28,561 nucleotides of DNA, taken from IMG/VR virus record IMGVR_UViG_3300042295_000056, positions 1 through 28,561 of that record. One strand, written 5' to 3'. Position numbers and translations under genes: made by a program. The DNA is from a virus. Below the pieces are notes generated by a model. The model was not told the origin of the DNA and did no database searches. It saw only the letters and a program-made list of their open reading frames with translations. Positions 10,510 through 26,711 of this stretch are shown in pieces (the stretch's first letter is position 1; each line of letters starts with the position of its first letter).

Positions 10510-12785
10510 TACTTTTTATCCTTTGGTGTGTTTAATTTTTGCATGCCTTTGGCAATCTTCTTGACTCGCATAGCAGCTGGCTTTGAAGACTTGACTTCAC
10601 GACCGCCCTCGAATGGAGCTTTTTCTACTTCTTCGTTCTTAGGTTTCTTGCCAGATTTCTTCATAGCAATAGCGATCGCTGCTTGTTGCGCAGGATTAGT
10701 AGCTTCTTCCAACTCTGACATCAGATAGTCATTAGCGGTCTGTAGATAGTCAGTTGCTAGTGTAATCTTTGACTGAACCCACTCTGGCATGTCAGTTTCT
10801 TTGTCAAGAACTTTCATCATTTCTTGGCAGTTGCGGATGATGGTGCGCAGTTGCGACATAGCCATATCACCCTCGTAGCCATACTCGCCTTCGTCTTGCT
10901 TGTCTTTAGCACCGATGGCTTCGCCTAGTGTGCTTTTAGGTTTAGAGTCGCCTTCTGATTTGGGAATTGGTTTCAAATGTTGTTGTGATACAATGTGATT
11001 CTTTCCATCGTGATGGACAGCCATTCCAGCAGTACGTGTGCCATACACCCTACCAGCTCCACCCAGAACAGATACGGGTTTACCATGTAGCGGATGTCCT
11101 GGCTTGTCAACGATGTGCGTTGCTGCTGGTTTAGGTCGTGGCTTGTCACCGATGGCCACGAGGGCTTCGCCTAGTGTTCTTTTAGGTTTAGGGTATGAGA
11201 GAATTGTCCTGCCCAACGGACCATCGTCTTTATTGTCAGTCGTTGCTGCTGGTTTAGGTGTCGCTGGTTTATGCGTTGCTGGAATTTGTCCGTGCGTATC
11301 TTTATCGTAAGAAGCCAAACCACCATGACGTCTGCGAACAACCGAGTCCTTTTTTACATGTCCTACTACTTTTCCTGTTGATTTATGCACCACATGACCA
11401 GTGGATGTTACTACGTGATCTGAAGTAAGTTTTTGTTTTTGCTTGTGACGAAGATTTGCAGAATGATAATGTGTTGGAGATGACTTATTGGCTTCATCCA
11501 ACTCAACTTCTTCTGGCATTTTCATTTTCGCTTTCTGAAAGCCCATCTTGGTTCTTTGTAGAAGCGAAGGATCAGCTGTAGTCAGATTCATCATCTTGTC
11601 AAGCATCGCTAAGATTTCCTGACGAAGTGCTGGATTGGTCAGAGCCTTGTCGCCCATCTTGATTGCGCGCTTCATCTTCATTAGATCGGAAGGATCCTTA
11701 GCCATTGCACGAAGCAACATGTTTTGCTGTTGGTCTTCTGCTTCGTTGAACATAGTTGTGTATGCTTCCCAGAAGTTTTCTAGTTGTTCGTCTAGGTTGA
11801 CTGACTCGTACATGTCTTCTCTTTCTGCTCTATTATAAGAAGAAAGAATGTGCTTTGGATGCGCATGTCCTTTTACTACAAACGTACCACCACCTGCTGG
11901 ATCATGTACATGATTGATTATGGTATGTGTTGTTTTTCCTTTTGAATCTTTGACATGGTGAACGTGCAATGTCGTTCCTCCATGTGTTTCTAGTTCGTGG
12001 TCTGGTTTGCGGTCAGGAATATCGCCATGTTCTTCTGGATCATGATCGTCCAGATTTCTATCAACGTCTGCGCCACTCTTCGTGGTAATTTCTTGCAGGT
12101 TGACTTCTTCTGCACGATAGTTGCTGATTCTGCCACCAGATACATTTTGTTTGCTTAGACGAGCAGCTGCGCTCTTGACGCCAAGAAGACGCTTGAATGC
12201 TTTTTTCGATGCATCCTTGCTTCCGCTTTCGCCAGCAAACTTAGCATCGTTGTGTACATCGACAACGGCTTTGCTGACATAATTGCCTAGTGTCTTGTCG
12301 CTGATTTCATCGATCTGCTCGAACGATTCATTAAACATCTTTTCGCCTTCCGTGTGAGGCAGTGGCTTCGCGCCACGTTTTTTTAATTCAGCCTTAATAT
12401 GTGGAAGATGTGGGTCTTCATGGCCACCGCCACCACTGTATCCCATGTTATGGTGATGTAGATACTGAAGATGCTTCGTAGGAACTTTCTTGATGTGTTC
12501 GATATTTTTTTCGATTTTGTCGCCGTGCTTGGCAGCTGTAGCGTGGTCAGCATCAGTAAATGGCTTCATGGCTTCGTCTAGCTCGACTTCTTCAGCAACT
12601 TTCTTCGCTGTAGCAGTAGCAATCGCCATCTTCTTACCCATGTCCATTCCTGGATTTTCGCGTTCCATGGCTTTTGCGATTTCTTCGCGTTTCTTCATCT
12701 CAGCGTCGGTCAGTTTCTTCTCACCAAGCATAACTTGCTTGATGATATCGACTAGTGGATCTTTTGTGGTAAATGGGTTCGACAT
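10509..12785 (-). CDS. Multi-module protein with repeated L/I-x-E junctions, probable packaged head protein
   Basis: A 758-residue hydrophilic protein made of short modules joined by acidic linkers. The same junction recurs at residues 69-71 (LDE/A), 158-160 (IDE/I), 230-232 (LQE/I), 331-333 (LDE/Q), 429-431 (LDE/A), 538-540 (LGE/A), 620-622 (LGE/A) and 692-694 (LEE/A). Each fits the T4 prohead protease rule of L/I-x-E before the cut. EEVELDEA occurs twice in full. Modules include a Lys/Met helix unit at each end (KREEIAKAM, QQAAIAIAMKKSG), a DKTLGNYVSKA unit (163-173), a His-rich unit (about 271-312) and an MPEWVQSKITLATDYL unit (666-681) that I recall from many T4-like phages. No enzyme motif is seen. 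Position in the late block supports internal head location. Confidence 0.7.
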   Translation of the reverse strand: MSNPFTTKDPLVDIIKQVMLGEKKLTDAEMKKREEIAKAMERENPGMDMGKKMAIATATAKKVAEEVELDEAMKPFTDADHATAAKHGDKIEKNIEHIKKVPTKHLQYLHHHNMGYSGGGGHEDPHLPHIKAELKKRGAKPLPHTEGEKMFNESFEQIDEISDKTLGNYVSKAVVDVHNDAKFAGESGSKDASKKAFKRLLGVKSAAARLSKQNVSGGRISNYRAEEVNLQEITTKSGADVDRNLDDHDPEEHGDIPDRKPDHELETHGGTTLHVHHVKDSKGKTTHTIINHVHDPAGGGTFVVKGHAHPKHILSSYNRAEREDMYESVNLDEQLENFWEAYTTMFNEAEDQQQNMLLRAMAKDPSDLMKMKRAIKMGDKALTNPALRQEILAMLDKMMNLTTADPSLLQRTKMGFQKAKMKMPEEVELDEANKSSPTHYHSANLRHKQKQKLTSDHVVTSTGHVVHKSTGKVVGHVKKDSVVRRRHGGLASYDKDTHGQIPATHKPATPKPAATTDNKDDGPLGRTILSYPKPKRTLGEALVAIGDKPRPKPAATHIVDKPGHPLHGKPVSVLGGAGRVYGTRTAGMAVHHDGKNHIVSQQHLKPIPKSEGDSKPKSTLGEAIGAKDKQDEGEYGYEGDMAMSQLRTIIRNCQEMMKVLDKETDMPEWVQSKITLATDYLQTANDYLMSELEEATNPAQQAAIAIAMKKSGKKPKNEEVEKAPFEGGREVKSSKPAAMRVKKIAKGMQKLNTPKDKK

Positions 12786-12794
12786 AATGGTTCC

Positions 12795-13313
12795 TTATTT
12801 GTTTCTACGAGATTTGGTCCAAGAACCAAAGTCATATTTTTCGTTGATGTCAGCAATACGTTGGTTTACTTCTTCACGGACACCAACTCCAGAAGCGATA
12901 GAGCGAAGCATCCAAGCGTGTTTTTCGTGAGCGTCGATTCTACCACCTAAGAAATCGTTCATGCCGTATTTCTTTACAGCGTTTGACTCGTCGAACGCGC
13001 GAGTCAGGAGATTAATCATTTCAGCGTTGCTTTGATACAAATCCATAATCATATCAACTGGAGTTGTAGCAGTTCCATCGGCAATAGTTCTTAGTGCAAC
13101 GAACTCACTCAGACCAGCTGGAGCGTCGATACCCAGAGTGCGAATTTCTTCAGCAGTAGGATCGATTGCGCCTTCAAAATCTTCGTATAATTCACCAAAG
13201 AACTCATGTAGTTGTGGGAAGAACATGCCTTTAACATTCCAGTGATAGCCCTGCGCTTTGTACTTCAAAACGACAGTATTGGCTAGGATGGTTTTCATTG
13301 TATCTTGTAACAT
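12795..13313 (-). CDS. Dps/ferritin-like DNA-protection protein
   Basis: A 172-residue four-helix protein of the Dps family, which stores iron, detoxifies peroxide and can coat DNA. The signature YHWNVKG...QLHEFF...D...E is clear: H24, H36, D51 and E55 align with ferroxidase ligands of E. coli Dps (H51, H63, D78, E82). The position equivalent to D67 is G40, so one iron ligand seems lost; the neighbouring E41 might substitute. The C-terminus is basic (TKSRRNK), as in DNA-binding Dps proteins. A CTAAATA late box lies about 25 nt upstream, and GGAG precedes ATG 13313. Late timing suggests protection of packaged or replicating phage DNA. It lacks an obvious capsid-targeting start. Confidence 0.88.
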   Translation of the reverse strand: MLQDTMKTILANTVVLKYKAQGYHWNVKGMFFPQLHEFFGELYEDFEGAIDPTAEEIRTLGIDAPAGLSEFVALRTIADGTATTPVDMIMDLYQSNAEMINLLTRAFDESNAVKKYGMNDFLGGRIDAHEKHAWMLRSIASGVGVREEVNQRIADINEKYDFGSWTKSRRNK

Positions 13314-13335: not shown

Positions 13336-13344
13336 TATATTTAG
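13336..13344 (-). promoter_or_regulatory. Late promoter box CTAAATA (Dps gene)
   Basis: Minus-strand CTAAATATA lies in the 31-nt gap between the 374-residue gene and the Dps gene, about 25 nt above the Dps ATG. CTAAATA fits the late-promoter -10 type of T4-like phages (T4 TATAAATA; CTAAATA in cyanophages as I recall). Five intergenic copies exist in the window. Confidence 0.7.
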
Positions 13345-14469
13345 TTATGCTTCGACCTTAGCTGAAGCTCTCCATTGCCTACAACTCCAGTATCTCGGAG
13401 TCGTTCTATCAGTTGCAGTGTCGCAGTTGTGACGTGCGCGGAAGTTCTTTCTGCGAGCAGGATCGTCGCGTTTGATTTCCATGTTAGGATCGCCGAAGCC
13501 AACCTTTACTACATTTCCTTTTTCATTCCTTACAAACACCTTGAACTTCTTTTTGCCGTCACCAGCGCGCATCACTTTACCTAGTGGCTTGTTCTCGTTT
13601 TCTTCTTCTCTGACTAATCCACCACTAGTACCAATATTGCCAGCTGGCGGAGGAACTACGTTCTTGCCAGCTGTTGGTGATGTTTCTTTGATAGTCTTAC
13701 CATTCATCTCTACGCTGTCGCCCATGTAGCGTTTTCCGCCATGGCTATCTGGATAGTAAGGCATTCCACCGCCAGTTTTTGGTTTGGTCGCAGGAGTTGG
13801 CTTGCTTGGTTCAGCATCTTTGTGGTCAGCTGGTGGCTTCGAGAAATCGTTCTTGACTTTCTCAAGAGCAGCTCTTAATCGCGCATTTCTGTCGGTTTCT
13901 TCAGGAACACAGTTAGGAACCATCTTGTCGCCTTTCTTTTTCATGCCGACTCTTTTGTATCCAGTCCAGCATGCTTCGCCAAACATCTTACGAGCTTTGA
14001 TGGTGTGCTTTGATTCTTTGGTCTTTGCGGTTGCGTCGCCAGGAGCTGGTTCATAGGCAGCAGGATCTTTGTCAGAAAGTTTGTCCATCTTTTCCCAATG
14101 TGCTGCGCGTGCTTTTGCGGTAGATGGCGAAAGACCAGACACATACTTCTTAGGCAGACCTGACTCTTTGTCCTTTGCGACTTCTTCTAGTTCCTCTTCG
14201 CGCAGATCTTTATCAGCACCATGATAAGTTCCCTTACCCTTAGTGATGTAGGAGTTGACGCGAGCCATGCCCCACTGTTGCGGAGTTGTTCCTGGACGGT
14301 GACCTGAGTTCCACGCAGCAACGCCACGCTTGTAAACTTTGCGTAGAGTTGATAGTGGCATGCCAGACTTGTCAGCTTTCGCTGCTAGACCTGAGTCAGA
14401 TTCTTCCATCTCGCTACGTTTTTCGCAAGCAGAGCAACAAGCTTCGTATAGTTCTTTGAATGTCTTCAT
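13345..14469 (-). CDS. Multi-module protein with capsid-targeting-like N-terminus
   Basis: A 374-residue hydrophilic protein starting MKTFKELYEA, close to the T4 internal-protein targeting peptide with a possible cut after L7-Y8-E9. Modules in order: residues 36-92 with VYKRGVAAW...GTTPQQWGMARVNS, paralogous to residues 500-556 of the upstream 1345-residue protein; 104-156 with a YVSGLSPSTAKARAAHW and YEPAPGD pattern; 166-190 with CWTGYKRVG...VPNCVPE, preceded by FGE/A; and 295-368 with KFKVFV...GDPNMEIKRDD, a RHNCD Cys and a YWSCRQW Cys. These modules recur in different orders in T4-like phage head-region proteins to my memory; none has a proven activity. The ATG overlaps the stop of the 1345-residue gene. 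Confidence 0.75.
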   Translation of the reverse strand: MKTFKELYEACCSACEKRSEMEESDSGLAAKADKSGMPLSTLRKVYKRGVAAWNSGHRPGTTPQQWGMARVNSYITKGKGTYHGADKDLREEELEEVAKDKESGLPKKYVSGLSPSTAKARAAHWEKMDKLSDKDPAAYEPAPGDATAKTKESKHTIKARKMFGEACWTGYKRVGMKKKGDKMVPNCVPEETDRNARLRAALEKVKNDFSKPPADHKDAEPSKPTPATKPKTGGGMPYYPDSHGGKRYMGDSVEMNGKTIKETSPTAGKNVVPPPAGNIGTSGGLVREEENENKPLGKVMRAGDGKKKFKVFVRNEKGNVVKVGFGDPNMEIKRDDPARRKNFRARHNCDTATDRTTPRYWSCRQWRASAKVEA

Positions 14470-17400
14470 TTCTTTTTCTCAGGTTGTGTTTTTAGGAAGT
14501 CTTTCATTGACATCATTGGACCGATATCTTTTTCTGGTGTTGGATTCTTTAGGAATTCGCCGACGTCTTCTGGATGTTTTAGATCAGATTGTGAGTATAC
14601 TCGGACTTTCTGACCAGATGCATCAAGATACCAAGAGTTCTCATCACCAGTGTATTTCGGTGTAATCTTCTGCTCGTCGACTGGCTCGCCAGCGTGAATG
14701 TGAGCAAGTTCTTTGCTGTATTTAGCAAACATCTTTTTGGTGGTCGGTGTTGTTCCGACACCAATCTCGTCTGGTATACCAGCTTTTGGCTTATCAAATT
14801 CATCTGTGTCACCATCAATGTCTAGGTCTTTGCGGTCAACTGCGTGCTTGACTTGATGCATCATTCCTAGATTAGGATTGATCATGTGATGAACGTGATA
14901 CTTATGGCCAGATGCTTTGTGGTGAATCGGCTTCGGATTTACAGTTGGCTGATTACCGACTGCCATGTCAGCGGATTCCATTAGGAAGTCACCGAAGGAT
15001 AGGAAGGATTCGTTCTTTTGTTTTTTAGATTTCTTAGGTAATTTAGAAACCTCGCGTGTCATATTATCTTGTCGAGCTTTGGCTTTAGCCCCTTTATTTG
15101 TTGGACTTGCTTTCTTAGCAGGCTTTGGCTTAACAACAATATGTCTCCACAACATTTTTGTTGATCCTCTTTTCTCCGTTTTAAAGTCAAGCTGAAGCAT
15201 TCTTACTGGTTCGTCTCCCTCTGGAGACTCTTCCATGTTTACAACAACTTTAGTTCCGTCAATAGATACTTTGAAATTTCCCTTAGGATTACAGTAGTAA
15301 TCAGGTGGTTTGATTTCGGTTTTATTAGTTTTCTTATTAGTTATCAATGTAGCAACGTCATTTCCACAACCATGAACTTTTAACCATATATCTTTCAATT
15401 GTTCTTGGCCATCTTTAGTTTTTGCTAGATCTGCCATTGATCCACCAAATTCTTTAAGGTAATCTTTTTTCAAGTCTTCTTTACGTCTTTTTACCTCAGC
15501 TTCATCTATGTCATCTGCCCAGTAATTATATTTTGACTTAGATTTCATGTTTTTCAATTTTTCATCTATTTTCTTACCAATTTCTCCGCCGAGCCAAGTT
15601 TCTCCCGCCTTATCTGTACCAGAGTTTTTCATAGTAATGTTGTTTACATTATCGTAAGTCTTGAAAGAAAACTTTTTATTGATTAGATTTCCAGATTTAT
15701 CTTTGATAGTAACGATAACATCAGTAGGATCAGTTAATGGAGTTATACCAAGCTCTTTTAGCTTGTTAGGTCCTAGACCACCGACTTGCTGAGAAGAAAC
15801 TATTTCAGCTCCTTCATGTAGCAATTGTATGTAATCACGAAGTTCTTTTGCAGCATCTTCGTTTTGTTTTTCAGCAATATCCAGATCTCCACCAGCTTTA
15901 ACAAATCTATCGCGCAATTTTTCTGCTGCTTCGGTGTTTTCTGGACTTGGATGTATAAGAGCTGCTATTCCTGCTTCGTGTAGTTTTCCACTTAGGTCAG
16001 CAAGCAATCTGCCAGGATCATCTCCTGGTTCAATCTCTATCCCATATTTTTCGATCAGACGATTTGCTTCTAATGAGAATGTATCTCCTTTATCTGGAGC
16101 CAATTTTTTTCTCAACTCATCATGCACTGTTTCATTTCCTTTCATACCACCTAATACATTGCTATGCACGTAAATCTTTTTACCGCCACTGTGACTGGAT
16201 ATTAGATTATTCTCTGCTAGATAACGAAGAGCTTCAACTCGATCTTCTTCTGTATCAGCATTAACAAAATCTTTGTAACCCTTAATCATAGAATTAAATC
16301 TATCTAAATCTGGACCAGAAATAAAACTTGATTTATGTTTTTCTGCAAGATCTTCTAGTTTTTTGTTCATTTTTTTGGTTGTTGTATCTTGTTCGATCTC
16401 TGCTCCGATTTCTTTTCCACGCTTAATTTTCTGACTAGCTGTTTCAGTACTTTGTTGATCTACGGCTGTTTCAATTTCTTGCGGAGAAAGAGATGCTCCT
16501 CTATCTGGTTGAGCATCAACAGGTTGACTATTTGGTGAATTACTTTGTACACCTGCTGTATAAGTGTTTAGAGCAGACGCTGGACCATCCATTACTTTTG
16601 GCGCTAGGTTTACAGCAGCAGCTGGTTGACCATCACCTTGTGGTGCTTCTCTACCATTAGTAGCTGTTGGCTGCTGCGCTGGTTGTTCGCCACCCAGTTC
16701 TTCTAATTTTTTTGCGGCTGCAGCCTTAACTTTATCAGTCGAACCTCTAGATGCATATTGACCTAACGATAGCTTGTTGTCTGTATCTGCAATTTTGGCA
16801 AGGGCTTCTTCCTCTCCATGAGTTGCAACGTCATCTTGCTCTAACAAATCTCTGTCGGCTGTATGAGCATTGAATCCACCAGCTAAGAATGAATTGACAC
16901 GCGCGAAACCCCACTGTTGTGGAGTTGTATCTTCACGCAAGCCCATGTTCCATGATGCTACACCACGCGCATAGACTTCTTTGATGACCTTGACAGGAAC
17001 ACCAGTTTCATTCGACTTTCTGATTAATGATGCTTGTTCGAGCGGAGCTAAAGAATAGTTCTGCTCTGCGATGATGCGCTTCATGATAGTATTGACTGAG
17101 TGAATCAGATTATCACGTGACATGCTTTCTCTTAGTTTCTTTTTCTTTACTGGCGTCGGACTAAGCGAAATAGACTTGAAGCCCTGACCAGATCTACGGC
17201 GACCTTCAGCTTGACGTAGTTTTGGCTCGATACGTTTTGCTAGACGAGCAATGGCTGTTTTTCTGCGCGCGATCTGACGATCTACTGCTGCGCGCGAGGA
17301 ATAAGAAAGATCTTGATACTTTCTACCACGTAGAATGCGTTTGCGCATCATCTTGATTGCTACGCGCTTAGAGCGTCTACTAATTACCTTAGAGGTGGCT

Positions 17401-18503
17401 TTACGAGCAAGAGCGCGTCTTTGGCCAAGGCGAATCTTACCTTTGACACGACGCATTTGTGTGCGACGCTTTAGACGTTGGCTCAATGTAAGAACTGCTT
17501 CGTCTAGATCTTCAGAAAGATATTGTTTTAATTTATCCATCACAAGTTTAGCAGCAGACTTCAAACGAGAAGGCAGACCTGACTTGAACTTGGCTAGATC
17601 GCCAGCTTTCGCAGCAGCACGCATCTTTGACGCTGACATTCCGCCGACACCTTCTTCGTCTGGGTCGCGCTCGCCAGCGGAAACAACTTCGATTTCTTCG
17701 AACTTATATTCTGAACCGTTGTACTTGTTTGCTAGTGATTTGATATTTGCAAGACGATCGGAACCGACAACGATAATGACCTTATCGTATTTGTCTTCGA
17801 GCATTTTAAGCAAGCCGATAAAGCCAGCAGGATACATACTCTTTGGTGTATCTTGTACGATTCCTGGGAATGCCATCTTGGCTAGTTTTAGTTTATCGGA
17901 ATAAGGCAATGGATTCTTATCATCGCCTTCTGTTCTTGACAAGAAAAGACGAGCGTCTGCTTTGTTAGCTTTAGCGACAGCTTGAATTTTATCTACCAGT
18001 TTTTCATGTCCGACTGTTGGCGGATTCATGCGACCGAACGAGAACACAACTGACTTCATCGCAGCTTCTTTGATACCATCAGCGCGGATGATGTATTGTG
18101 GGTTTAGTTCGATAGCATTTGGCGCATCACCAGAAACGGTTTTGCCTTTCTTGAGATTGTTTAGAATATCTTTGCCAGAACCTTTCTTGAAAGGAGCAAT
18201 TCTATTAGGCTCGACTTCCTTGGTCTTGGTTTCTTTTTCTTGGGCTTGTGCTTGTTCGCCACCGACCTGAGTTTGAGCAGTGTGTACGCTAGGATCTTTG
18301 GGAGGTTGAACATGAGCAGCTGCATCTTGGTCACCAGAATCACGACGACGCTTTAGTTCTTCTTCAGCTGCATTACGTACGACGAGATCTTCGCTTCTTG
18401 CGAGATTAGCGATAGATTTGCTAGAACTCTTTGGATCTTGAATGAACTTGAGTCTAGCTTGAGTTTCGTCTGCTTCTTTGATTACTTCTATAAAGGACTT
18501 CAT
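14466..18503 (-). CDS. Giant multi-domain protein: nucleotidyltransferase plus nuclease-like and basic modules, probably packaged
   Basis: 1345 residues. The start MKSFIEVIKEAD resembles a T4 capsid-targeting peptide (cut after I8-K9-E10). Residues 144-146 form IKE/A just before a cytidylyltransferase-like/NMNAT-like domain (149-325) with GRMNPPTVGH (157-166), a VVGSDR turn and GMSASKMR (288-295). LDE/A (333-335) precedes a very basic, Arg/Lys-rich module (340-440). LRE/S (457-459) precedes the VYARGVASW...TTPQQWGFARVNS module (500-556). After a Q/A/P-rich linker comes an AT-rich part (about 690-1125) with PTDVIVTIKD...KKFSFKTY, possibly a PD-(D/E)XK-type nuclease core. An internal SFLSFGDFLMES (1166-1177) again looks like a targeting peptide. 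GGAG precedes ATG 18503. Confidence 0.75.
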   Translation of the reverse strand: MKSFIEVIKEADETQARLKFIQDPKSSSKSIANLARSEDLVVRNAAEEELKRRRDSGDQDAAAHVQPPKDPSVHTAQTQVGGEQAQAQEKETKTKEVEPNRIAPFKKGSGKDILNNLKKGKTVSGDAPNAIELNPQYIIRADGIKEAAMKSVVFSFGRMNPPTVGHEKLVDKIQAVAKANKADARLFLSRTEGDDKNPLPYSDKLKLAKMAFPGIVQDTPKSMYPAGFIGLLKMLEDKYDKVIIVVGSDRLANIKSLANKYNGSEYKFEEIEVVSAGERDPDEEGVGGMSASKMRAAAKAGDLAKFKSGLPSRLKSAAKLVMDKLKQYLSEDLDEAVLTLSQRLKRRTQMRRVKGKIRLGQRRALARKATSKVISRRSKRVAIKMMRKRILRGRKYQDLSYSSRAAVDRQIARRKTAIARLAKRIEPKLRQAEGRRRSGQGFKSISLSPTPVKKKKLRESMSRDNLIHSVNTIMKRIIAEQNYSLAPLEQASLIRKSNETGVPVKVIKEVYARGVASWNMGLREDTTPQQWGFARVNSFLAGGFNAHTADRDLLEQDDVATHGEEEALAKIADTDNKLSLGQYASRGSTDKVKAAAAKKLEELGGEQPAQQPTATNGREAPQGDGQPAAAVNLAPKVMDGPASALNTYTAGVQSNSPNSQPVDAQPDRGASLSPQEIETAVDQQSTETASQKIKRGKEIGAEIEQDTTTKKMNKKLEDLAEKHKSSFISGPDLDRFNSMIKGYKDFVNADTEEDRVEALRYLAENNLISSHSGGKKIYVHSNVLGGMKGNETVHDELRKKLAPDKGDTFSLEANRLIEKYGIEIEPGDDPGRLLADLSGKLHEAGIAALIHPSPENTEAAEKLRDRFVKAGGDLDIAEKQNEDAAKELRDYIQLLHEGAEIVSSQQVGGLGPNKLKELGITPLTDPTDVIVTIKDKSGNLINKKFSFKTYDNVNNITMKNSGTDKAGETWLGGEIGKKIDEKLKNMKSKSKYNYWADDIDEAEVKRRKEDLKKDYLKEFGGSMADLAKTKDGQEQLKDIWLKVHGCGNDVATLITNKKTNKTEIKPPDYYCNPKGNFKVSIDGTKVVVNMEESPEGDEPVRMLQLDFKTEKRGSTKMLWRHIVVKPKPAKKASPTNKGAKAKARQDNMTREVSKLPKKSKKQKNESFLSFGDFLMESADMAVGNQPTVNPKPIHHKASGHKYHVHHMINPNLGMMHQVKHAVDRKDLDIDGDTDEFDKPKAGIPDEIGVGTTPTTKKMFAKYSKELAHIHAGEPVDEQKITPKYTGDENSWYLDASGQKVRVYSQSDLKHPEDVGEFLKNPTPEKDIGPMMSMKDFLKTQPEKKK

Positions 18504-18542
18504 CTTATCTCCAGGATTGCCTTAGCTTTCTGAGCCACATAC

Positions 18543-18549
18543 TATTTAG
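18543..18549 (-). promoter_or_regulatory. Late promoter box CTAAATA (1345-residue gene)
   Basis: Minus-strand ACTAAATAGT between the 157-residue gene stop and the 1345-residue gene, 40 nt above its ATG. Same sequence as the other intergenic late boxes. Confidence 0.7.
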
Positions 18550-18555
18550 TAAAAA

Positions 18556-19029
18556 TTAATCTTTGTCTTCGAAGTCCAGTTCCTCTGGTGCACCATATTC
18601 GGTGTCTTCTGGATAATCATCAATATCGTCGACATCAATGTCAGATTCTTCGTCATCATATTCGTCATATACTGCATCTGGTTCGTCGAGTTCTTCGATC
18701 TCTGACATATCAATTTCGTACCAGTTAATCATACCTGCTTCGTGGAAGTCGCGGATATAATAGTGCTCTTCTAATTCGCCCAACTCGTCTAGGATTTCTT
18801 CAGCTTGTGACGCATACTCATCAAATTTGTCAAGATCTTGGTCTGTAGTTTTACGACCAAGAGTTGTCTTGCGAACAACAGCTAATGCTTTGTCCAAGTG
18901 TTGAGCAGCTTCACGAACTAAACCTAGTTCTTCATCAAACTTACGCGCAGCCAGAGCAGAGAATGCTTCTGATGCAAGTGGCGAGATGTCAAAGTTTTTA
19001 GTTTCGTAGTTGTCGATGATTAGATTCAT
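18556..19029 (-). CDS. Hypothetical protein with long acidic tail
   Basis: A 157-residue protein. Residues 1-95 look helical. From about residue 108 to the end it is extremely acidic, dominated by D and E (for example DDEESDIDVDDIDDYPED). No motif, signal or membrane segment is visible. AAGGAAA precedes ATG 19029, and it lies 18 nt below the holin-like gene in the late block. Acidic tails occur in DNA-mimic proteins, in scaffold-type proteins and in partners of very basic proteins such as the Arg/Lys-rich module of the next gene. I cannot choose among these. Confidence 0.65.
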   Translation of the reverse strand: MNLIIDNYETKNFDISPLASEAFSALAARKFDEELGLVREAAQHLDKALAVVRKTTLGRKTTDQDLDKFDEYASQAEEILDELGELEEHYYIRDFHEAGMINWYEIDMSEIEELDEPDAVYDEYDDEESDIDVDDIDDYPEDTEYGAPEELDFEDKD

Positions 19030-19047
19030 ACTGCAGTTTCCTTAATT

Positions 19048-19329
19048 TTATTTCTTTGGTGCAGGTGGTTGTTCTGGTTCAGTCTTAGCTTTCATAGCTA
19101 GAGCAGCACCACCAGCAGCGAGAACGATGCCAAGACCAGTTGCCCAATCCATAGCATCAAACTTACCATTGTTGTAAAGATCGTACATTGTTAGGGCGAA
19201 ATAAACAAACACACCCTTTGCCCATAGTAAACGACCTAGATCTAGTGTTTGATTATCTTTACCAGTAAAGGTATTTCTTAACATGTCTTTTAGCGATGTC
19301 ATAAATGTTTTCTCCTTATTGTCGGACAT
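19048..19329 (-). CDS. Small membrane protein, holin-like, two possible starts
   Basis: A 93-residue protein with two hydrophobic segments: about 36-51 (KGVFVYFALTMYDLY) and 61-80 (WATGLGIVLAAGGAALAM), then a polar PEQPPAPKK tail. A DLGRLLWA stretch precedes the first helix and a C-terminal GLGIVLAAGGAALAMK...TEP pattern is common in small phage membrane proteins of unknown function. ATG 19329 and the in-frame ATG 19302 (residue 10) each have a GGAG site upstream at 7 and 9 nt. The extra nine residues include two Lys. A late CTAAATA box lies about 30 nt upstream. Holin-like by size and topology only. Confidence 0.65.
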   Translation of the reverse strand: MSDNKEKTFMTSLKDMLRNTFTGKDNQTLDLGRLLWAKGVFVYFALTMYDLYNNGKFDAMDWATGLGIVLAAGGAALAMKAKTEPEQPPAPKK

Positions 19330-19356
19330 AACAATTCTCCATCACCTTACATGAAA

Positions 19357-19959
19357 CTATTTAGTGGTTTTATACCTTGAGATGGACCCTGAATGGTCAA
19401 CATAAAAGGTCTCAAATTTCATCTCTGGGAACTCAGATTCAAGTTCGTGTAGTGCATCTAGGTTTGATTTGGCGTCGTCAAACAGGCGAACCATTTCATA
19501 CTTACCATCCTTGATTAGTTCTCGGATGACTACCTTTTTGTTTTGGGCTGAGTCAGCGCCACCGACATTACCAGCGCGGTGAACATATACTTTACTTATA
19601 TCGAAGCCATACTTCTTGAATGTATCAAGGAACACGTTCTTGTCGTCTAGATCGCCGCGAGCAGTGACGATGACTATCTTCTTGTTAGCAAATGCGCTGA
19701 ATCGCGAGATGATAGACTTGGCTGTCTTAAACACCGTGGCGATCGGCTTGGCTGTTTTCTGAAACACCTCGGCACTGCGAAAGTCAGAGAAGTCAAGTGA
19801 CTCTCCGCTCTTTACTTTATACACATTGAACTCAGCAGGAGTCAGCGACTTGATGCGCTTGCCACCCTTTACGATATGGATCTTAGTATCTGTGGTGAAT
19901 AGCGTGTCATCAATATCAAATATTGTCAGGCTGGCGGTCTTTGATTCAAACAATCTCAT
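19357..19959 (-). CDS. HAD-superfamily phosphatase with L-x-E N-terminus
   Basis: A 200-residue HAD hydrolase with all four motifs: DIDDTL (nucleophile D15, acid D17), T99 in IVIVTARGD, K141/K142, and LFDD (D161, D162). A cap-like insertion (about 30-75) lies between motifs I and II. Layout and length resemble the phosphatase half of polynucleotide kinase-phosphatases and other phage HAD enzymes; the substrate cannot be read. It begins MRLFES, with a potential prohead-protease site after L3-F4-E5, although that is shorter than a normal targeting peptide. Its ATG overlaps the stop of the Cys-cluster gene (ATGA), so it is translated with that gene and the ligase-like gene from the late box at 21603. 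Confidence 0.85.
   Translation of the reverse strand: MRLFESKTASLTIFDIDDTLFTTDTKIHIVKGGKRIKSLTPAEFNVYKVKSGESLDFSDFRSAEVFQKTAKPIATVFKTAKSIISRFSAFANKKIVIVTARGDLDDKNVFLDTFKKYGFDISKVYVHRAGNVGGADSAQNKKVVIRELIKDGKYEMVRLFDDAKSNLDALHELESEFPEMKFETFYVDHSGSISRYKTTK
19358..19364 (-). promoter_or_regulatory. Late promoter box CTAAATA (holin-like gene)
   Basis: Minus-strand ACTAAATAGT overlaps the stop codon of the HAD gene and lies about 30 nt above the ATG of the 93-residue membrane protein. It could restart transcription for the 93- and 157-residue genes within the late block. Confidence 0.65.
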
Positions 19960-20351
19960 TTAATTGGTCCATTTACTAGCCAAGCGGTGCAAGATCGACT
20001 GGCAGCACACTTGAAGTGAAACAGATTACAATAACCCAGCTCTGCTAAATCAACAGTCTTCTCACCGTCAACGTGCTTAACATCATTGACAATACCAGAT
20101 TCAATACACTTTAACATCTTCGGTGACTCATCAAACGCAGCACAATTTCCACACTTCATAGTTTTGGCAGTAGCTTCGTCAATCTTCCATCGTTTGGCTG
20201 CATCTTTCCAGTAATTTCCTGGCTCGTTAGGATTAGCTGGACCATAATAGTATTCGTCGATTGCATGCTGACGATTTTCTAGGTTTACATGAATATCCTG
20301 TGTAGCAACAGGACAAGATTCTTCAAGTAAGAAAGGAATAAACTTTTTCAT
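19956..20351 (-). CDS. Cys-cluster protein with capsid-targeting-like N-terminus
   Basis: A 131-residue protein from ATG 20351, which overlaps the upstream stop as ATGA; a TTG nine bases further upstream has no properly spaced ribosome site. It starts MKKFIPFLLEES, with a possible cut after L8-L9-E10. After that come YYYGPANPNEPG, then CGNC (67, 70), C82, GYC (108), C115 and C121, ending TAWLVNGPIK. The pattern of C-x2-C followed by single spaced Cys suggests a Zn or Fe-S site; it reminds me of HiPIP-like phage proteins, but the cofactor is not proven. The same sequence style occurs in T4-like phages as unnamed proteins. It is sandwiched between the ligase-like and HAD genes. Confidence 0.8.
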   Translation of the reverse strand: MKKFIPFLLEESCPVATQDIHVNLENRQHAIDEYYYGPANPNEPGNYWKDAAKRWKIDEATAKTMKCGNCAAFDESPKMLKCIESGIVNDVKHVDGEKTVDLAELGYCNLFHFKCAASRSCTAWLVNGPIK

Positions 20352-21580
20352 CTTTGCCAACCTTTTAGTATATCTGGTGAGAAGTTTGCGCGCGAGAACT
20401 CAAGACGATCTACAATTTTGACTGCGTTCTTGCCAGTATGATCAATAGCAACGTATCCTTCTTGACTTGTAGCCATAAATCCTACAGCTGTTTTTAAGAA
20501 TGTACCGATGCCTTCTGCTTTGTTCATTTTAGAAACAATAACAATCTTGGCTTCGACGAGTAGTTTCATCAAGTCAAACACCTTGGCTATTTCCATAGGA
20601 TCGTTGTTGCTGAAGAACTTTAATACTCTTTGTTTTCTTTCACGAACTGCTTGCTTACCAGCTTCAGTTTTCTTTGAGTCTTCATCTTTCTGAAACTTGT
20701 CGGTGATGAACTGAACTAGACCACGAACGTGAGATGCGCCATTATCAATAATAGGTTGACCCATTCTAATCTTGCTGTTGTTAAAAGTCTTAGTCATAAT
20801 AAGCAGTTCTTCATCATTAGCAAAGCCATTTAGAATAGCTGGCTTGATAGTTTGAAATAATGTACCAGCCCTAGAAAGAACCTTTGTAACTTCTTCGGTT
20901 TCAGTTTGCGTCATGGTAGCTGTACCAGTCACATCGCGATAAGTCGCGTCATCAAACCAGACATTTTTGCTTGCTTTTAATTTACTTTTAATGTTTTTAC
21001 CGAAGCTGGCTTTCATTGTTTCAAAAGAACTGCCAGTATAAGTTGTGTGCCAGACGATTCCCATCTTAGCACTCTGAATCTGTTTTGCTAATTTAGTTTT
21101 GGTAGGAACTGCATAGACGATAGTGTTTGGGTGAAATGTCACACAAGATTCACCGCCAATTTCCTGCGTTCTTAAGTCTGACTGAGTAAACATCAGGTCA
21201 CCTTGGATAACACCTTTGATGCCCAACTCAGGTAAATACTTTAGACAGGTTACAAGTTTATCAGCTAGGTCGCCCGATGTATCAGCGCGCACTTCAGCTG
21301 GTGTCTTATAGACTTTAGGATTCTTGTTAAAGATACCTTTCTTGGCTACAAAGAACTTGCCATCACGAGGATCGATGCCAGCAAATACAGCAGGTGCGCC
21401 ATCCCACTTCACAGTGGTGTTTACTTTTACATTGCTATTACCAGCAAGCATGTCGCGTAGTGACTGAAGAAAGTTAATTGATTGTCTTGCTCCATCAACA
21501 CCACCGTTTAGAACATTATCTTCAAGATGTTCCATGTGTGTGTTCTTTGCTTCGACGAGATATTTGTTAAATCCAATCAT
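20348..21580 (-). CDS. Ligase-like covalent nucleotidyltransferase with capsid-targeting-like N-terminus
   Basis: A 410-residue protein. After the start MIGFNKYLVEAK (possible cut after L8-V9-E10) it shows an order of motifs like the ATP-dependent DNA/RNA ligase superfamily: VKWDGAPAVF with K58 as candidate adenylated Lys (motif I, K-x-D-G), IQGDLMF (125-131, motif III-like), EGYVAI (374-379, motif IV-like) and AVKIVDR (386-392, motif V-like with K388). About 200 residues separate the motif III-like and IV-like parts, longer than usual. The substrate could be DNA, RNA or a protein. GGAAG precedes ATG 21580, and a late box lies at 21603-21609. It opens the run of genes with capsid-targeting-like starts. 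Confidence 0.75.
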   Translation of the reverse strand: MIGFNKYLVEAKNTHMEHLEDNVLNGGVDGARQSINFLQSLRDMLAGNSNVKVNTTVKWDGAPAVFAGIDPRDGKFFVAKKGIFNKNPKVYKTPAEVRADTSGDLADKLVTCLKYLPELGIKGVIQGDLMFTQSDLRTQEIGGESCVTFHPNTIVYAVPTKTKLAKQIQSAKMGIVWHTTYTGSSFETMKASFGKNIKSKLKASKNVWFDDATYRDVTGTATMTQTETEEVTKVLSRAGTLFQTIKPAILNGFANDEELLIMTKTFNNSKIRMGQPIIDNGASHVRGLVQFITDKFQKDEDSKKTEAGKQAVRERKQRVLKFFSNNDPMEIAKVFDLMKLLVEAKIVIVSKMNKAEGIGTFLKTAVGFMATSQEGYVAIDHTGKNAVKIVDRLEFSRANFSPDILKGWQR

Positions 21581-21602
21581 AGATCTTCCTTTTTGCGTAA
21601 TC

Positions 21603-21609
21603 TATTTAG
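21603..21609 (-). promoter_or_regulatory. Late promoter box CTAAATA (ligase-like operon)
   Basis: Minus-strand CCTAAATAGA directly after the thyX terminator and about 23 nt above ATG 21580. Terminator followed at once by a late box would separate early thyX transcription from the late packaged-enzyme operon. Confidence 0.75.
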
Positions 21610-21610
21610 G

Positions 21611-21635
21611 TAAAAAGGGAGCCGAAGCTCCCTTT
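21611..21635 (-). terminator. Rho-independent terminator after thyX
   Basis: Minus-strand hairpin with a perfect 9-bp stem (21635-21627 with 21622-21614), a cUUCGg tetraloop (21626-21623) and a following U-run that begins inside the stem (five T, 21616-21612). It starts 2 nt past the thyX stop. Confidence 0.9.
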
Positions 21636-21636
21636 G

Positions 21637-22521
21637 TTACTTTTTGTAGGACCAGCAGGTGTGGTCTTCAATCAATTGACGGTGTTGTATCCACTGTCGG
21701 AAGTTGCCAGACCAAGCATTACCTTTGTTGTCAAATCCAGTCGTTCCTTTCACTTGAACATCACCAGCCATACCATACGTCAGCGGTGTAGCCTGATGCT
21801 CAAACGGCGAAGCATGAACTGGCTTTGATTCTACCAGACGCTTAAAGATATCGCGAGCCTTCTCAAGCGAGTCATCTAGTCTGCGGTAGGATACCTGAGC
21901 GCAACAAGACGACGAGATAGCCAGCGCGTCTTCTAGTGTATCCTCTGAATCGAACGACCACTTACCGTCAGCGTAGTAAGGAACGTGCCATTCATTAGCA
22001 CCAATATTCTGAATGTTGCTCTTGTTGTATTCTTCCCACATCACAACAGCTAGTTCGTGAATCTCTGGTTGCGCGTCAGGATGATTGCGTAGCCAGAAGA
22101 AATTGTCAAACTCAGTAGCGGTACAAACAACTTTAATCATAGTAAATGGTTCAAGGATGCGATTCACTAGCTGTTTGTGATAGCCAGCAAACGCATAACG
22201 ATTAGCATATTCAACCGCAGACTTCATAGCCTGCAACCAAATCATCGTTCCTTCTTCTGCGCTTAGTTCTTCCTTCGCACTCATTCCTGGCTGGTTCTTG
22301 CCCCAGTGAATAGGTTTGGCTGTATTGCTTTCTACCAAGTCAATCATCTTGCTGACTGGAATGGCACGAGAACTCGCAGCATTGCGCGAGAATAGGCGGT
22401 GCGTCATGAACTCTGCGTGAATAAAGCGCGGATACTCAAGTTCGAATGTTGTGAGTCTCACGTCATCAGGTGAGATAGAGTCAGCGATAATCTTCGCCGA
22501 GATGTTTCCTTTGCCAATCAT
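21637..22521 (-). CDS. thyX: Flavin-dependent thymidylate synthase
   Basis: A 294-residue ThyX that makes dTMP from dUMP with FAD and methylene-tetrahydrofolate. The family motif is at residues 40-52, THRLFSRNAASSR, with Thr in place of the first Arg of the classical RHR-x7-S motif, a variant I know from phages. I chose ATG 22521 because GGAG sits just upstream and because a frame extended to 22575 would be translated through the terminator hairpin at 22541-22560. It is isolated between two terminators, and works with NrdA/NrdB in nucleotide supply. Confidence 0.95.
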   Translation of the reverse strand: MIGKGNISAKIIADSISPDDVRLTTFELEYPRFIHAEFMTHRLFSRNAASSRAIPVSKMIDLVESNTAKPIHWGKNQPGMSAKEELSAEEGTMIWLQAMKSAVEYANRYAFAGYHKQLVNRILEPFTMIKVVCTATEFDNFFWLRNHPDAQPEIHELAVVMWEEYNKSNIQNIGANEWHVPYYADGKWSFDSEDTLEDALAISSSCCAQVSYRRLDDSLEKARDIFKRLVESKPVHASPFEHQATPLTYGMAGDVQVKGTTGFDNKGNAWSGNFRQWIQHRQLIEDHTCWSYKK

Positions 22522-22534
22522 AATTTCTCCAAAC

Positions 22535-22560
22535 AAAAAGGAGCCACCCGAAGGTGGCTC
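22535..22560 (-). terminator. Rho-independent terminator after the AAA+ gene / hairpin in thyX leader
   Basis: Minus-strand perfect 8-bp GC-rich stem GAGCCACC/GGTGGCTC (22560-22553 with 22548-22541), cUUCGg tetraloop, then C and five T. It lies 22 nt past the AAA+ stop and 19 nt before the thyX ATG. Confidence 0.9.
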
Positions 22561-22575
22561 AAGTACCACTACCAA

Positions 22576-22582
22576 TATTTAG
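22576..22582 (-). promoter_or_regulatory. Possible late promoter box CTAAATA (thyX)
   Basis: Minus-strand ACTAAATATT immediately after the AAA+ stop codon. If active, transcription would start near 22569 and the cUUCGg hairpin would form at the 5' end of the thyX transcript. No other promoter is seen for thyX. Confidence 0.5.
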
Positions 22583-23803: not shown

Positions 23804-23846
23804 AGTATATTCCTTGGTAGAGGTGTGGTTTTCAACTTACAAACAT

Positions 23847-23875
23847 AGTATAACTGAATTAGACTGCGAAGTAAA
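23847..23875 (-). promoter_or_regulatory. Early sigma-70-like promoter P3 (AAA+ gene)
   Basis: Minus-strand -35 TTTACT (23875-23870), exact 17-nt spacer, -10 TATACT (23852-23847). The ATG lies 44 nt below. The 159-nt gap that holds it contains no gene, only this promoter and the repeats at 23907-23944. Confidence 0.8.
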
Positions 23876-23906
23876 ATAATACACAGTAATTCTATAATAT
23901 CTAGCA

Positions 23907-23944
23907 AAATCAATGACTTAAAGTTCTAATGAAATCAATGACTT
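23907..23944. repeat. Upstream iterated element, copy B
   Basis: Two exact copies of AAATCAATGACTT at 23907-23919 and 23932-23944, 25 nt apart, as in copy A. The sequence between them (TCTAATG next to the second copy) is shared with copy A. It is 31 nt from the -35 box of P3, about 15 nt further than in the other two sites. Confidence 0.8.
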
Positions 23945-23962
23945 AGCAGACTACGGCTCCTG

Positions 23963-24412
23963 TCAGACATCCCAGAACAAGCGGTTCAGACAGTATTGAT
24001 ATCCGTATGCTTCAACTTCCCATGGCTGAAGAAAATACTCAAACTCCTTCAGGTCATAGTTCTTTCTTCCATACTTTGCTACACGATAGTTTTTGATTAC
24101 AAGTTTGCCAGTTGCGAACTGCCAAGCATGAGTCAATTCGTGGAATAAGATTTCCGTATATTGTTGCGGAGTCAAGTCTTTCTTAAACATCTTCTGGTTT
24201 ACTTCGATGCTAAACTCTTCTGGTTTAGTACCGTGGTCTGGAATGTGCGGATCGCACCATGCTTCAGCATGAGTGTTGCTTGACACAAACTCAACATGAA
24301 CGTGACCAAACGCAAACTTCTTATCAGAAGGAATATTGTCTACGAAAAACTTAACTGCTTTCCTAGTGTATGGTTTTAGTTTCTTTGGTACTTTACAAGA
24401 TGTGATTCGCAT
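23963..24412 (-). CDS. SprT-like zinc metalloprotease domain protein
   Basis: A 149-residue protein with zincin motif HELTH (H91, E92, H95) in ILFHELTHAWQFATG, followed by a likely third ligand in WEVEAYGYQY (E132 or E134). This arrangement is that of SprT-like proteins, some of which cleave DNA-bound proteins. There is no signal peptide, so it is cytoplasmic. It starts 8 nt after the VWA gene stop with TAAGGA at the junction, so both are translated from the early promoter at 26589-26617. Substrate unknown; host DNA-bound proteins are a reasonable guess. Confidence 0.8.
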   Translation of the reverse strand: MRITSCKVPKKLKPYTRKAVKFFVDNIPSDKKFAFGHVHVEFVSSNTHAEAWCDPHIPDHGTKPEEFSIEVNQKMFKKDLTPQQYTEILFHELTHAWQFATGKLVIKNYRVAKYGRKNYDLKEFEYFLQPWEVEAYGYQYCLNRLFWDV

Positions 24413-24420
24413 GGTTATCC

Positions 24421-26562: not shown

Positions 26563-26588
26563 AAGCGATACTCCTTTCAGATACACCT

Positions 26589-26617: not shown

Positions 26618-26622
26618 ACAAT

Positions 26623-26708: not shown

Positions 26709-26711
26709 ACA

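Follow-up and report, generated by a model that had tools for sequence, protein, structure and literature searches.

Does the gene island at positions 13345-21580 of the window (the whole 28,561-nucleotide stretch of viral DNA analyzed here) encode enzymes that travel inside the phage head and enter the host with the DNA? Such a cargo had been proposed from the start peptides of the island proteins, which recall the capsid-targeting sequence (CTS) of the T4 internal proteins (IPs). In the mechanism that we favor, a start peptide of ∼10 residues (M-x-x-[F/L]-x-x-[F/Y]-[L/I]-x-E, the tag) would act like the T4 CTS. F4 and the aromatic residue at position 7 would bind the prohead core, the gp21 protease of the phage would cut after L/I-x-E, and the freed enzyme would stay in the head and be ejected with the DNA. 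The cargo would comprise a DUF6267 protein, an NMNAT/PPAT-type adenylyltransferase within a multi-module protein, a Cys-cluster protein, a 374-residue protein, and perhaps a HAD phosphatase.

We assign a probability of roughly 0.84 to the island encoding late, tag-addressed, and protease-released head cargo. The proposal is backed by conservation of the peptide among homologues, recovery of virion proteins in the cyanophage S-CREM2, a contig carrying gp21, and late-promoter-like motifs. That the proteins are packaged, cleaved, and ejected in this phage is inferred, as are the roles of the enzymes in the host; proteomic data on its virions are lacking, and no homologue has been shown to have a cleaved N terminus. 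Given a T4-like address tag on enzymes, the phage, an environmental relative of T4, probably injects these enzymes ready-made with its DNA.

Genes of the island

Four island proteins, all encoded on the minus strand, carry a 9–10-residue start peptide ending in L/I-x-E, with open reading frames and starts as the earlier note had described them.

20348-21580, minus strand: DUF6267 protein, 410 residues; putative ligase-like covalent nucleotidyltransferase, predicted head cargo
21551-21580, minus strand: start tag MIGFNKYLVE of the DUF6267 protein, continuing AKNTH; predicted cut after E10
19956-20351, minus strand: 131-residue Cys-cluster protein, function unknown; tag MKKFIPFLLE (20322-20351), then ESC
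19357-19959, minus strand: HAD phosphatase-like protein, 200 residues; start MRLFE, then SKT
19048-19329, minus strand: untagged 93-residue protein; hydrophobic stretch by eye
18556-19029, minus strand: untagged 157-residue protein; a homologue adjoins DUF6267 in DLP6
14466-18503, minus strand: multi-module protein, 1345 residues; start tag MKSFIEVIKE (18474-18503), then ADE
13345-14469, minus strand: 374-residue protein; contains DUF5824 and ends in a weak DUF5754-like match; start peptide MKTFKELYE (14443-14469), then ACC
12795-13313, minus strand: untagged Dps/ferritin-like protein (Pfam Ferritin, 7e-21)

The 131-residue gene likely starts at the ATG at 20351; the TTG at 20360 given in the list of open reading frames makes it three codons longer. 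Because its five homologues are all at least 94% identical, conservation of its tag says little. The 374-residue protein matches Pfam PF19141 (5e-20) and, less well, PF19058 (0.012, under the cut-off for PF19058), and its end module occurs as separate tagged genes at three other loci (L045, L057, and L064). The HAD protein does start with MRLFE, as had been pointed out, but this is only a five-residue remnant of the tag. Among its 11 homologues, four carry the full tag (L032, L063, L071, and L080), four close relatives have MRLFE, two show a partial form, and one has none. The protein matches Pfam Acid_phosphat_B at 1.8e-4 (under the curated cut-off) and PHROG 415, polynucleotide kinase, at 3e-8. 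Its DIDDT motif, as read in the sequence, is of the HAD DxD type, and activity as a Pnkp-type 3'-phosphatase on polynucleotides is inferred at most. A sequence search of the HAD protein and the adenylyltransferase domain against solved structures gave nothing significant, and a DNA-level search of the phage collection gave no match. The "nuclease-like" protein of the earlier note is unsupported, as neither Pfam nor PHROGs points to one among the island proteins.

The cargo may also be only part of the island, a narrower form of the head-cargo reading rather than its opposite, to which we give a little less than an even chance. The DUF6267 protein, the NMNAT, and the 131-residue protein would then be packaged by the tag, and the HAD, 157-residue, 93-residue, and Dps proteins would be ordinary late or host-takeover proteins. 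The last three lack a tag and the HAD protein has only MRLFE here, as this restriction would have it, whereas the four fully tagged HAD homologues and the flagging of untagged island neighbors as virion proteins in S-SCSM1 count against it.

Conservation of the tag

Homologues without a conserved N-terminal peptide would have refuted the proposal. Instead, the tag stands at the start of 79 of 81 DUF6267 homologues examined (74 with the 9–10-residue form and 5 with a longer form). This set consists of 80 loci kept from at least 588 found, plus named phages, and some members are near-identical. One of the two exceptions lies on a truncated contig; the other, S-SZBM1_141, begins at the predicted cut (MAKNTHLEHLED). 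Methylophilales phage Melnitz, which is in culture, has a tagged DUF6267. Across 57 distinct 10-mers, positions 4, 7, 8, and 10 carry 3.4, 2.7, 3.1, and 3.9 bits, respectively, and positions 2, 3, 5, 6, and 9 carry 1.2–1.8 bits each, computed without a motif filter. The conserved positions are those found by experiment to be critical in the T4 CTS: targeting of IPIII resides mainly in positions 4 and 7 and processing in positions 8 and 10, according to the accessible part of a review (PMC9026906).

The earlier note had ascribed the start MKTYQEFI(A/N)E to T4 internal proteins I–III. This holds for IPII and IPIII, which begin MKTYQEFIAE and match the tag pattern, but not for IPI, which begins MKTFKEFTSTTTPVSTITE. 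Like IPII and IPIII, the proteins described here have a ten-residue start with critical positions 4, 7, 8, and 10, an L/I-x-E end, and a gp21-type protease in the phage. However, F4 and F/Y7 are preferred here, whereas T4 has Y4 and F7; the predicted cargo consists of multi-domain enzymes instead of small basic proteins; and the tag is found on many unrelated families, with tag-like sites inside polyproteins.

Of 1506 genes called in 84 loci and the window, 157 have, close to their start, a pattern of residue classes at the critical positions of T4 IPIII, compared with 6.0 expected from internal methionines (13/6543). The loci were picked for DUF6267, which is the source of 72 of the 157 matches. 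Among the non-DUF6267 genes, the native placement (4,7,8,10) fits 79 of 1424 and ranks first of 3024 placements, for which the median is 2 and the 95th percentile is 8. Judged on sequence statistics alone, the tag is more than chance. The same contigs contain 85 tag-bearing non-DUF6267 genes that form 30 further clusters, some of them doubtful; of ten tagged neighbor proteins compared with Pfam, six matched no family and another two gave only weak matches under curated cut-offs.

A profile trained on DUF6267 tags reaches only 7.1, 7.0, and −1.4 for the tags of the 1345-, 131-, and 374-residue proteins of the window, and only 4.9 for T4 IPII and IPIII, below two probably spurious open reading frames. 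In cyanophages, DUF6267 is mostly untagged: 33 of 60 phage rows among the matches listed (466 records) align only from query residue 10, and four cyanophage sequences begin at or near the protein body.

Enzyme folds and module layout

The 410-residue protein matches Pfam PF19782 (1.8e-112). K57xD59G60, E373G374xV376, and K387 are invariant in 37 sequences, and we take KxDG to be motif I, EGxV to be motif IV, and K387 to be the motif V lysine of the RNA/DNA ligase superfamily. When the DUF6267 model is compared with structures by VIA, 50 among the matches listed are all RNA/DNA ligases or ligase complexes, although the best Z is 7.8 and the best Foldseek E only 0.16. The tag region (residues 1–14) has a pLDDT below 50. 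By motifs and predicted model, the protein appears to have a ligase-like fold of the covalent nucleotidyltransferase superfamily; its activity is inferred. Motifs I, IV, and V and, as far as the model shows, the core fold are common to T4 Rnl1 and Rnl2, which differ from DUF6267 in lacking its ∼130-residue helical insert (residues 224–354), its start tag, and its late head-cargo context. Our literature search found nothing on DUF6267.

The 1345-residue protein joins an adenylyltransferase, DUF5824, and other modules, as assigned by Pfam and PHROGs; its injection is inferred.

18066-18074, minus strand: I-K-E, putative protease site directly preceding the adenylyltransferase domain
17529-18059, minus strand: NMNAT/PPAT-type adenylyltransferase domain, cytidylyltransferase in the annotation of relatives
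17511-17540, minus strand: internal tag-like site MDKLKQYLSE, then DLDEA; end of the adenylyltransferase domain
14976-15005, minus strand: internal tag-like site FLSFGDFLME, then SADM; ahead of the C-terminal module
10509-12785, minus strand: 758-residue protein in which L/I-x-E sites recur (ELDEA, QIDE, TLGEA)

The adenylyltransferase domain is recognized by PHROG 3041 (4e-80), and its model by Foldseek (E 2.5e-6) and VIA (Z 14.3, rmsd 2.8 over 152). Within its TxGH and SxSxxR-type motifs, T24, G26, H27, S151, and R156 are invariant in 39 sequences. Motifs and modeled fold place it in the NMNAT/PPAT (HxGH) family, but PPAT, NadD, and NadM structures tie within ∼1 Z unit, which leaves the substrate unresolved and at most inferred. 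Directly before the domain, [LIV]xE is found in 26 of 28 homologues that possess an N-terminal extension (L or I in 23); nine NMNAT homologues begin at the domain itself, without an extension.

At L078, a stand-alone gene (11495-11935) begins with MKSFKEYIAE, a start tag to which the site MDKLKQYLSE aligns, and part of the C-terminal module (residues 1218–1272) occurs as separate tagged genes at L008, L009, and L018. In the 758-residue protein, the module after TLGE/A (10920-10928) has stand-alone counterparts: the one in L033 is tagged, and the one in L045 has a variant of the tag with V at position 8. As the tag is found in many unrelated families and tag-like sites lie between modules, genes appear, from these alignments, to move between the states of tagged gene and polyprotein module. 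L/I-x-E sites number 21 in the 1345-residue protein (12.1 expected) and nine in the 758-residue protein (6.0 expected by composition). The mechanism looks like that of T4, and the cargo, the tag exchange, and the polyprotein layout look new. Polyvalent proteins (Iyer et al. 2017, PMC5512222), as far as that source was available, likewise combine unlike activities in multi-domain proteins predicted to be packaged and injected; their processing is ascribed to built-in peptidase domains, in contrast to the tag-like and predicted prohead-protease sites between modules here.

Virion proteins, head genes, and late-promoter-like motifs

A targeting-peptide profile search had been suggested as a check, and it picked virion-detected enzymes in an independent phage. 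Among 219 coding sequences of S-CREM2, the profile trained solely on DUF6267 tags ranks gp154, gp13, gp6, and gp14 highest (at least 13.9; next 6.1). All four are among the 52 virion proteins (Table 3, PMC10665884), gp13 by a single peptide, and they include an NMNAT-like adenylyltransferase, a SAM hydrolase, a kinase, and one small protein. The enrichment is significant at score cut-offs of 8 and 10 (Fisher P 0.0029) and 5 (P 0.012); over all S-CREM2 proteins, the scores fail to separate virion from non-virion proteins (Mann-Whitney P 0.36). In the three cyanophages tested by mass spectrometry (S-CREM2, S-SZBM1, and S-SCSM1), six of nine proteins scoring at least 10 are listed in virions (binomial P 0.0018 against 130/719); S-SZBM1_191, S-SZBM1_192, and S-SCSM1_30 are missing. 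In all three, the adenylyltransferase is tagged, as here, and present in the virion, whereas DUF6267 is untagged, unlike here, and absent from the published virion lists.

The domain of the 1345-residue protein resembles the NMNAT/cytidylyltransferase of S-CREM2, S-SZBM1, S-SCSM1, and S-SM1 virions, and in S-SZBM1 and S-SCSM1 the adenylyltransferase lies in the same neighborhood as here. The accessible portions of the literature on cyanophage virion NMNAT name no packaging signal. Because many virion-detected proteins of these neighborhoods are untagged (S-SCSM1 89, 90, 92, 93, 95, and 97; S-SZBM1_136 and S-SZBM1_139; S-CREM2 gp155, gp156, and gp160), the tag is not the sole route into the virion. 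The NMNAT versions of P-HM2 and Syn1 are also untagged, and their gene cluster has been found in S-SM1 virions, according to a partly available source. S-CREM1, for which the accessible text of PMC9964418 gives 14 virion proteins, was left out of our tallies, and no virion proteomics was found in the available part of the DLP6 paper (PMC5349666).

The authors of the S-CREM2 and S-SCSM1 studies, in the portions available, considered carry-over of such proteins possible, with soluble proteins conceivably present in CsCl preparations. The peptide might then be merely an N-terminal habit of the lineage (e.g. for translation initiation or as a membrane-seeking helix), as MK starts are common, and the virion detections would reflect abundant proteins. 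We regard this as scarcely credible in view of the position-specific conservation with a nearly invariant final E, the placement control, the fit to T4 IPII and IPIII, the S-CREM2 top-four recovery, and the fact that untagged DUF6267 is unlisted in the same preparations.

The prohead protease and scaffold, which the earlier note had wished to see located, are found, together with capsid genes, on the longer contig G001, which matches the window at 99.9% identity across 10,072 bases. It carries gp21 (PF03420), as do all eight genomes searched, this contig included; the identities of gp20, gp22, and gp23 rest on the order of the genes and on a reading of their sequences. A tagged 126-residue protein lies between gp21 and gp20, the place of the T4 core genes.

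In T4, gp22 and gp67 are cut up and expelled during head maturation. Tagged proteins could likewise bind the prohead core through their start peptides and be scaffold or core parts that never reach the host, and both the tagged 126-residue protein and the many L/I-x-E sites of the 758- and 1345-residue proteins would fit. As a general explanation this is improbable, as both DUF6267 and the adenylyltransferase have conserved enzyme folds whose motifs are intact, and an adenylyltransferase, a SAM hydrolase, and a kinase are listed in mature S-CREM2 virions; it may well hold for the 758-residue protein.

The late promoters expected for head cargo have a counterpart in late-promoter-like motifs before island and head genes, a match of motif only.

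21614-21635, minus strand: hairpin, then CCCTTTTTA on the minus strand; terminator-like, after thyX, T-run read by eye
21603-21609, minus strand: CTAAATA late-promoter-like motif, 22 nt before the DUF6267 gene and just after the thyX terminator
19358-19364, minus strand: CTAAATA, 28 nt upstream of the 93-residue gene
18543-18549, minus strand: CTAAATA, 39 nt before the 1345-residue gene
13338-13344, minus strand: CTAAATA, 24 nt upstream of the Dps gene

CTAAATA also precedes head and tail genes, and TATAAATA precedes gp22 and gp23, without expression data. CTAAATA occurs 20 times on the coding strand and 0 times on the other, and nine copies lie 70 nt or less from a possible start (mean for permuted 7-mers, 1.4). 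The motif was chosen after looking, as it emerged from the head genes of the longer contig, and ACTAAAT, the same motif in shifted form, comes close to its score (8 versus 9). TATAAATA has no exact copy in the window and 13 one-mismatch copies (24.4 expected); the 17 sigma-70 promoters found (22.3 expected) are uninformative.

If the head-cargo reading is true, ten residues readable from sequence would predict virion cargo for marine and freshwater T4-like phages that are mostly ungrown. The tag also offers an explanation for cyanophage virion enzymes that their discoverers could not distinguish from contamination, and one enzyme that occurs in nature both with and without the tag is available for direct tests. 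No description of such tags in cyanophages or marine T4-likes was found in the open-licence literature, largely titles, so that absence is unproven. The N-terminal signal that sends the large anti-restriction protein DarB of phage P1 into the head is comparable, but according to the accessible part of that work it lies within 30 residues, without a Dar consensus, and no L/I-x-E tag was found.

The tag yields candidate injected counter-defense enzymes. It is conceivable, though doubtful, that the head carries a pre-made counter-defense kit that works before expression of any phage gene begins, with the exchangeable tag turning the head into a general and evolvable protein-delivery device whose cargo is readable from genomes. 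DUF6267, the HAD phosphatase, and a tagged P-loop kinase of relatives might repair host RNA, such as tRNAs cut by anticodon nucleases, NMNAT might restore NAD, and the SAM hydrolase of other phages might starve restriction enzymes. The tag also makes T4 gp61.1 a new candidate, on which the accessible part of PMC9697503 yielded nothing.

One further T4-IP-like start lies outside the range given by the earlier note, with a profile score of 1.2.

2033-2314, minus strand: 93-residue protein with start MKTYKQFMEQ; T4-IP-like targeting positions, without L/I-x-E at positions 8–10

Start peptides of DUF6267 and other genes

Our best reading of the island (window ~13345–21580, − strand) is that its proteins are head cargo addressed by a start peptide. 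This peptide, here called the tag, comprises 9–10 residues ending in L/I-x-E and resembles the capsid-targeting sequence of T4. The five island protein starts on which the earlier note had based its claim are real, as checked against the open reading frames. We traced the DUF6267 protein (410 residues) in the best 80 of at least 588 virus contigs and in several named phages. A tag of 9–10 residues was found at the start of 74 of 81 homologues, some of them near-identical; five others have a longer tag form, one lies on a truncated contig, and one (S-SZBM1_141) has no tag. Among 57 distinct start 10-mers, collected without a motif filter, positions 4, 7, 8, and 10 hold 3.4, 2.7, 3.1, and 3.9 bits of information, and the variable positions hold 1.2–1.8 bits. 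According to a review, residues 4 and 7 of T4 IPIII serve mainly targeting and residues 8 and 10 processing, and gp21 cleaves after L/I-X-E (PMC9026906).

The corresponding pattern of residue classes at these four positions occurs near the start of 157 of 1506 called genes in virus loci chosen for DUF6267 versus 6.0 expected. Without DUF6267, it is found in 79 of 1424 genes and ranks first among the 3024 ways of placing these residue classes. Grouped by the remainder of the protein, 85 tagged genes form 30 clusters in addition to DUF6267. These include an adenylyltransferase, a HAD protein, a zeta-toxin/AAA_33-type kinase, and an HD_4 hydrolase; many are nameless, and a few are single short or doubtful ORFs.

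As a positive control, the pattern scan of T4 recovered IPII, IPIII, gene 61.1, gp2, ORF 107323–108606 (which we take to be gp24), and three other ORFs. IPI is similar to IPII and IPIII in its first seven residues, with L/I-x-E displaced to residues 17–19. In a profile trained only on DUF6267 tags, IPII and IPIII score a low 4.9 each, because none of the training tags has tyrosine at position 4, and are outscored by two GTG-start ORFs (5.8 and 5.4). The top score among the T4 starts scored (17.0) belongs to gp61.1, which has a full capsid-targeting tag (the arrow marks the predicted cut):

T4 gene 61.1, NC_000866 18966–19130, − strand: 54 residues, annotated as hypothetical, start MKTFKEFIKE↓D

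However, most of the cyanophage DUF6267 proteins seen have no tag, which speaks against tag-addressed head cargo. Among 60 matches listed from 466 records of a phage collection, 33 align only from query residue 10 onward. In five further phages, the protein either has a shortened start (HTVC008M, MYNDLLVE↓DKNTH, profile score −25.8) or begins at or near its body (P-HM2, Syn1, S-PM2, and P-RSM6). The P-RSM6 gene after DUF6267 starts with MITFHVFITE (profile score 13.0).

Tagged proteins in cyanophage virions

The profile was compared with the virion proteomes of three cyanophages, for which the sources were available in part. Of 219 coding sequences of S-CREM2, the four top scorers (gp154 adenylyltransferase, gp13, gp6 SAM hydrolase, and gp14 APH/ChoK-like kinase) are all among the 52 listed virion proteins (PMC10665884; Fisher P = 0.0029), gp13 by a single peptide; gp175, fifth with a score of 6.1, is absent from the list. 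Three starts of S-SZBM1 score at least 10, of which _140, the adenylyltransferase, is listed in the virion and _191 and _192 are not (PMC9146016). For S-SCSM1 (PMC9602691), 281 of 282 coding sequences were scored and virion flags were taken from the GenBank record; the NMNAT _91 is flagged, and _30 is not. Pooled over the three phages, six of nine high scorers are virion-listed versus a background of 130 of 719 (binomial P = 0.0018). The tag could explain the virion location of gp6, gp14, and the Cas9-like gp12 of S-CREM2, whose packaging was left open by the authors. Nevertheless, three high-scoring proteins are unlisted, and untagged island neighbors are also present in virions, both of which count against the tag as the address.

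The adenylyltransferase is tagged and virion-listed in all three phages tested by mass spectrometry. Its cluster, T4-GC190, was reported in S-SM1 virions in the accessible part of a further study (PMC3037559); the start sequence in S-SM1 was not seen, and the members of P-HM2 and Syn1 are untagged. The untagged DUF6267 proteins of the three tested phages (gp87, S-SZBM1_141, and S-SCSM1_257) do not appear in the virion lists, and such absence is weak evidence. No start-codon-led tag was seen in an in-frame search upstream of these three genes; two of the three copies are short and located elsewhere in the genome.

In gp12 (OR473000), LRFASFMAE↓AA occupies residues 17–25, a displaced tag variant with M for L/I. 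Tag-like starts were also noticed between the small and large terminase genes of the three cyanophages (S-SZBM1_191, S-SCSM1_30, and S-CREM2 gp136); of these, only gp136, which has a low profile score of 2.6, is virion-listed.

Modular proteins and predicted enzymes

The 1345-residue island protein contains two further tag-like sites at residues 322–331 and 1167–1176, with profile scores of 12.5 and 10.8; when the protein is shuffled, 5% of the resulting sequences have a top score of 10.6 or more. A stand-alone gene of locus L078 (146 residues, MKSFKEYIAE↓E) aligns from residue 1 with site 322–331, and part of the module that follows site 1167–1176 recurs in tagged stand-alone genes of loci L008, L009, and L018. 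Modules of the 374- and 758-residue proteins also occur as single genes with a tag or tag variant. An N-terminal extension is present in 28 adenylyltransferase homologues, and in 26 of these [LIV]xE (L or I in 23) lies within the 8 residues that precede the domain (P = 3e-19 for a null rate of 0.16; the sequences are related). Of the other homologues, two are without an [LIV]xE site and nine begin directly at the domain; that these nine need no N-terminal tag is a further point against addressing by the tag.

The AlphaFold model of DUF6267 has a mean pLDDT of 85.7, with residues 1–14 disordered. Foldseek matches are weak; the 50 matches listed by VIA, of which the best has a Z of 7.8 over 178 residues, are RNA/DNA ligases or ligase complexes. 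This model, together with the invariant residues K57, D59, G60, E373, G374, V376, and K387, supports a putative covalent nucleotidyltransferase, with the acceptor (RNA, DNA, or another) undecided. The adenylyltransferase domain clearly adopts an NMNAT/PPAT fold in structure comparison (Foldseek E 2.5e-6, VIA Z 14.3; substrate undecided), so that its annotation as “cytidylyltransferase” is probably a misnomer. The HAD protein has weak family matches and a PHROG of polynucleotide-kinase type.

Among relatives, locus L036 encodes a tagged HD_4 protein (13785–14360, + strand, start MKTFKKYIAE↓D); its signature is presumably that of (p)ppGpp hydrolases, and a packaged alarmone hydrolase is possible. 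Tagged zeta-toxin/AAA_33-type P-loop kinases are found in locus L065 (7470–8147) and contig G002 (37744–38805), and a similar sequence is present in HTVC008M, two genes past DUF6267.

Proposed route, gene order, and upstream motifs

As head cargo, the island proteins would be synthesized late, the tag would bind the prohead core, and gp21 would cut after L/I-x-E both at the protein start and between modules; once released, the enzymes would stay inside the head until they reach the cell together with the DNA. The first of these steps are inferred from T4 biology and sequence. For packaging of tagged proteins, support comes from homologues in other phages, and neither cleavage nor ejection has been shown. 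As far as the available parts of the sources go, the nearest known strategies outside T4 are P1 DarB (PMC9024508) and polyvalent proteins (PMC5512222). Surveys of NAD networks and jumbo phages deal with proteins related to NAD and ADP-ribose that are packaged or injected; the accessible portions of these surveys do not mention this start tag (PMC9503650, PMC7824862).

On the − strand of the 28,561-base virus record, a T4-like replication block (uvsX, gp41, a PHROG “peptidase,” a cobS-type ATPase, and thyX) is followed by the island, a Dps-like gene, spanin-like and other small genes, and then a gp61-type primase, nrdA, nrdB, and a RuvC-like gene. Contig G001 (72,883 bases), 99.9% identical to window 18490–28561, carries gp23, gp22, gp21, a tagged 126-residue protein (MKSFSEFMTE↓A), and gp20; except for gp21, these head genes were named from gene order and reading of the sequence.

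A terminator-like hairpin follows thyX, and CTAAATA lies 22 nt upstream of DUF6267, the first island gene. In the window and G001 together, this motif has 20 copies on the coding strand and none on the opposite strand. Nine copies lie at most 70 nt upstream of a possible start codon (permuted 7-mers, mean 1.4 such places; CTAAATA ranks highest of 105), among them copies preceding DUF6267, the 93- and 1345-residue proteins, Dps, and genes for head and tail. A doubtful case among the nine is the copy that touches a TTG start of thyX. Upstream of gp22 and gp23 is TATAAATA. On the − strand in this phage group, TATAAATA and CTAAATA appear to be two separate late-promoter-like elements. By eye, several replication genes have TTTTACTAAT...TATAAT-like leaders in place of both motifs. 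The Dps/ferritin-like gene (window 12795–13313) adjoins the head-cargo genes and has its own upstream CTAAATA and no tag.
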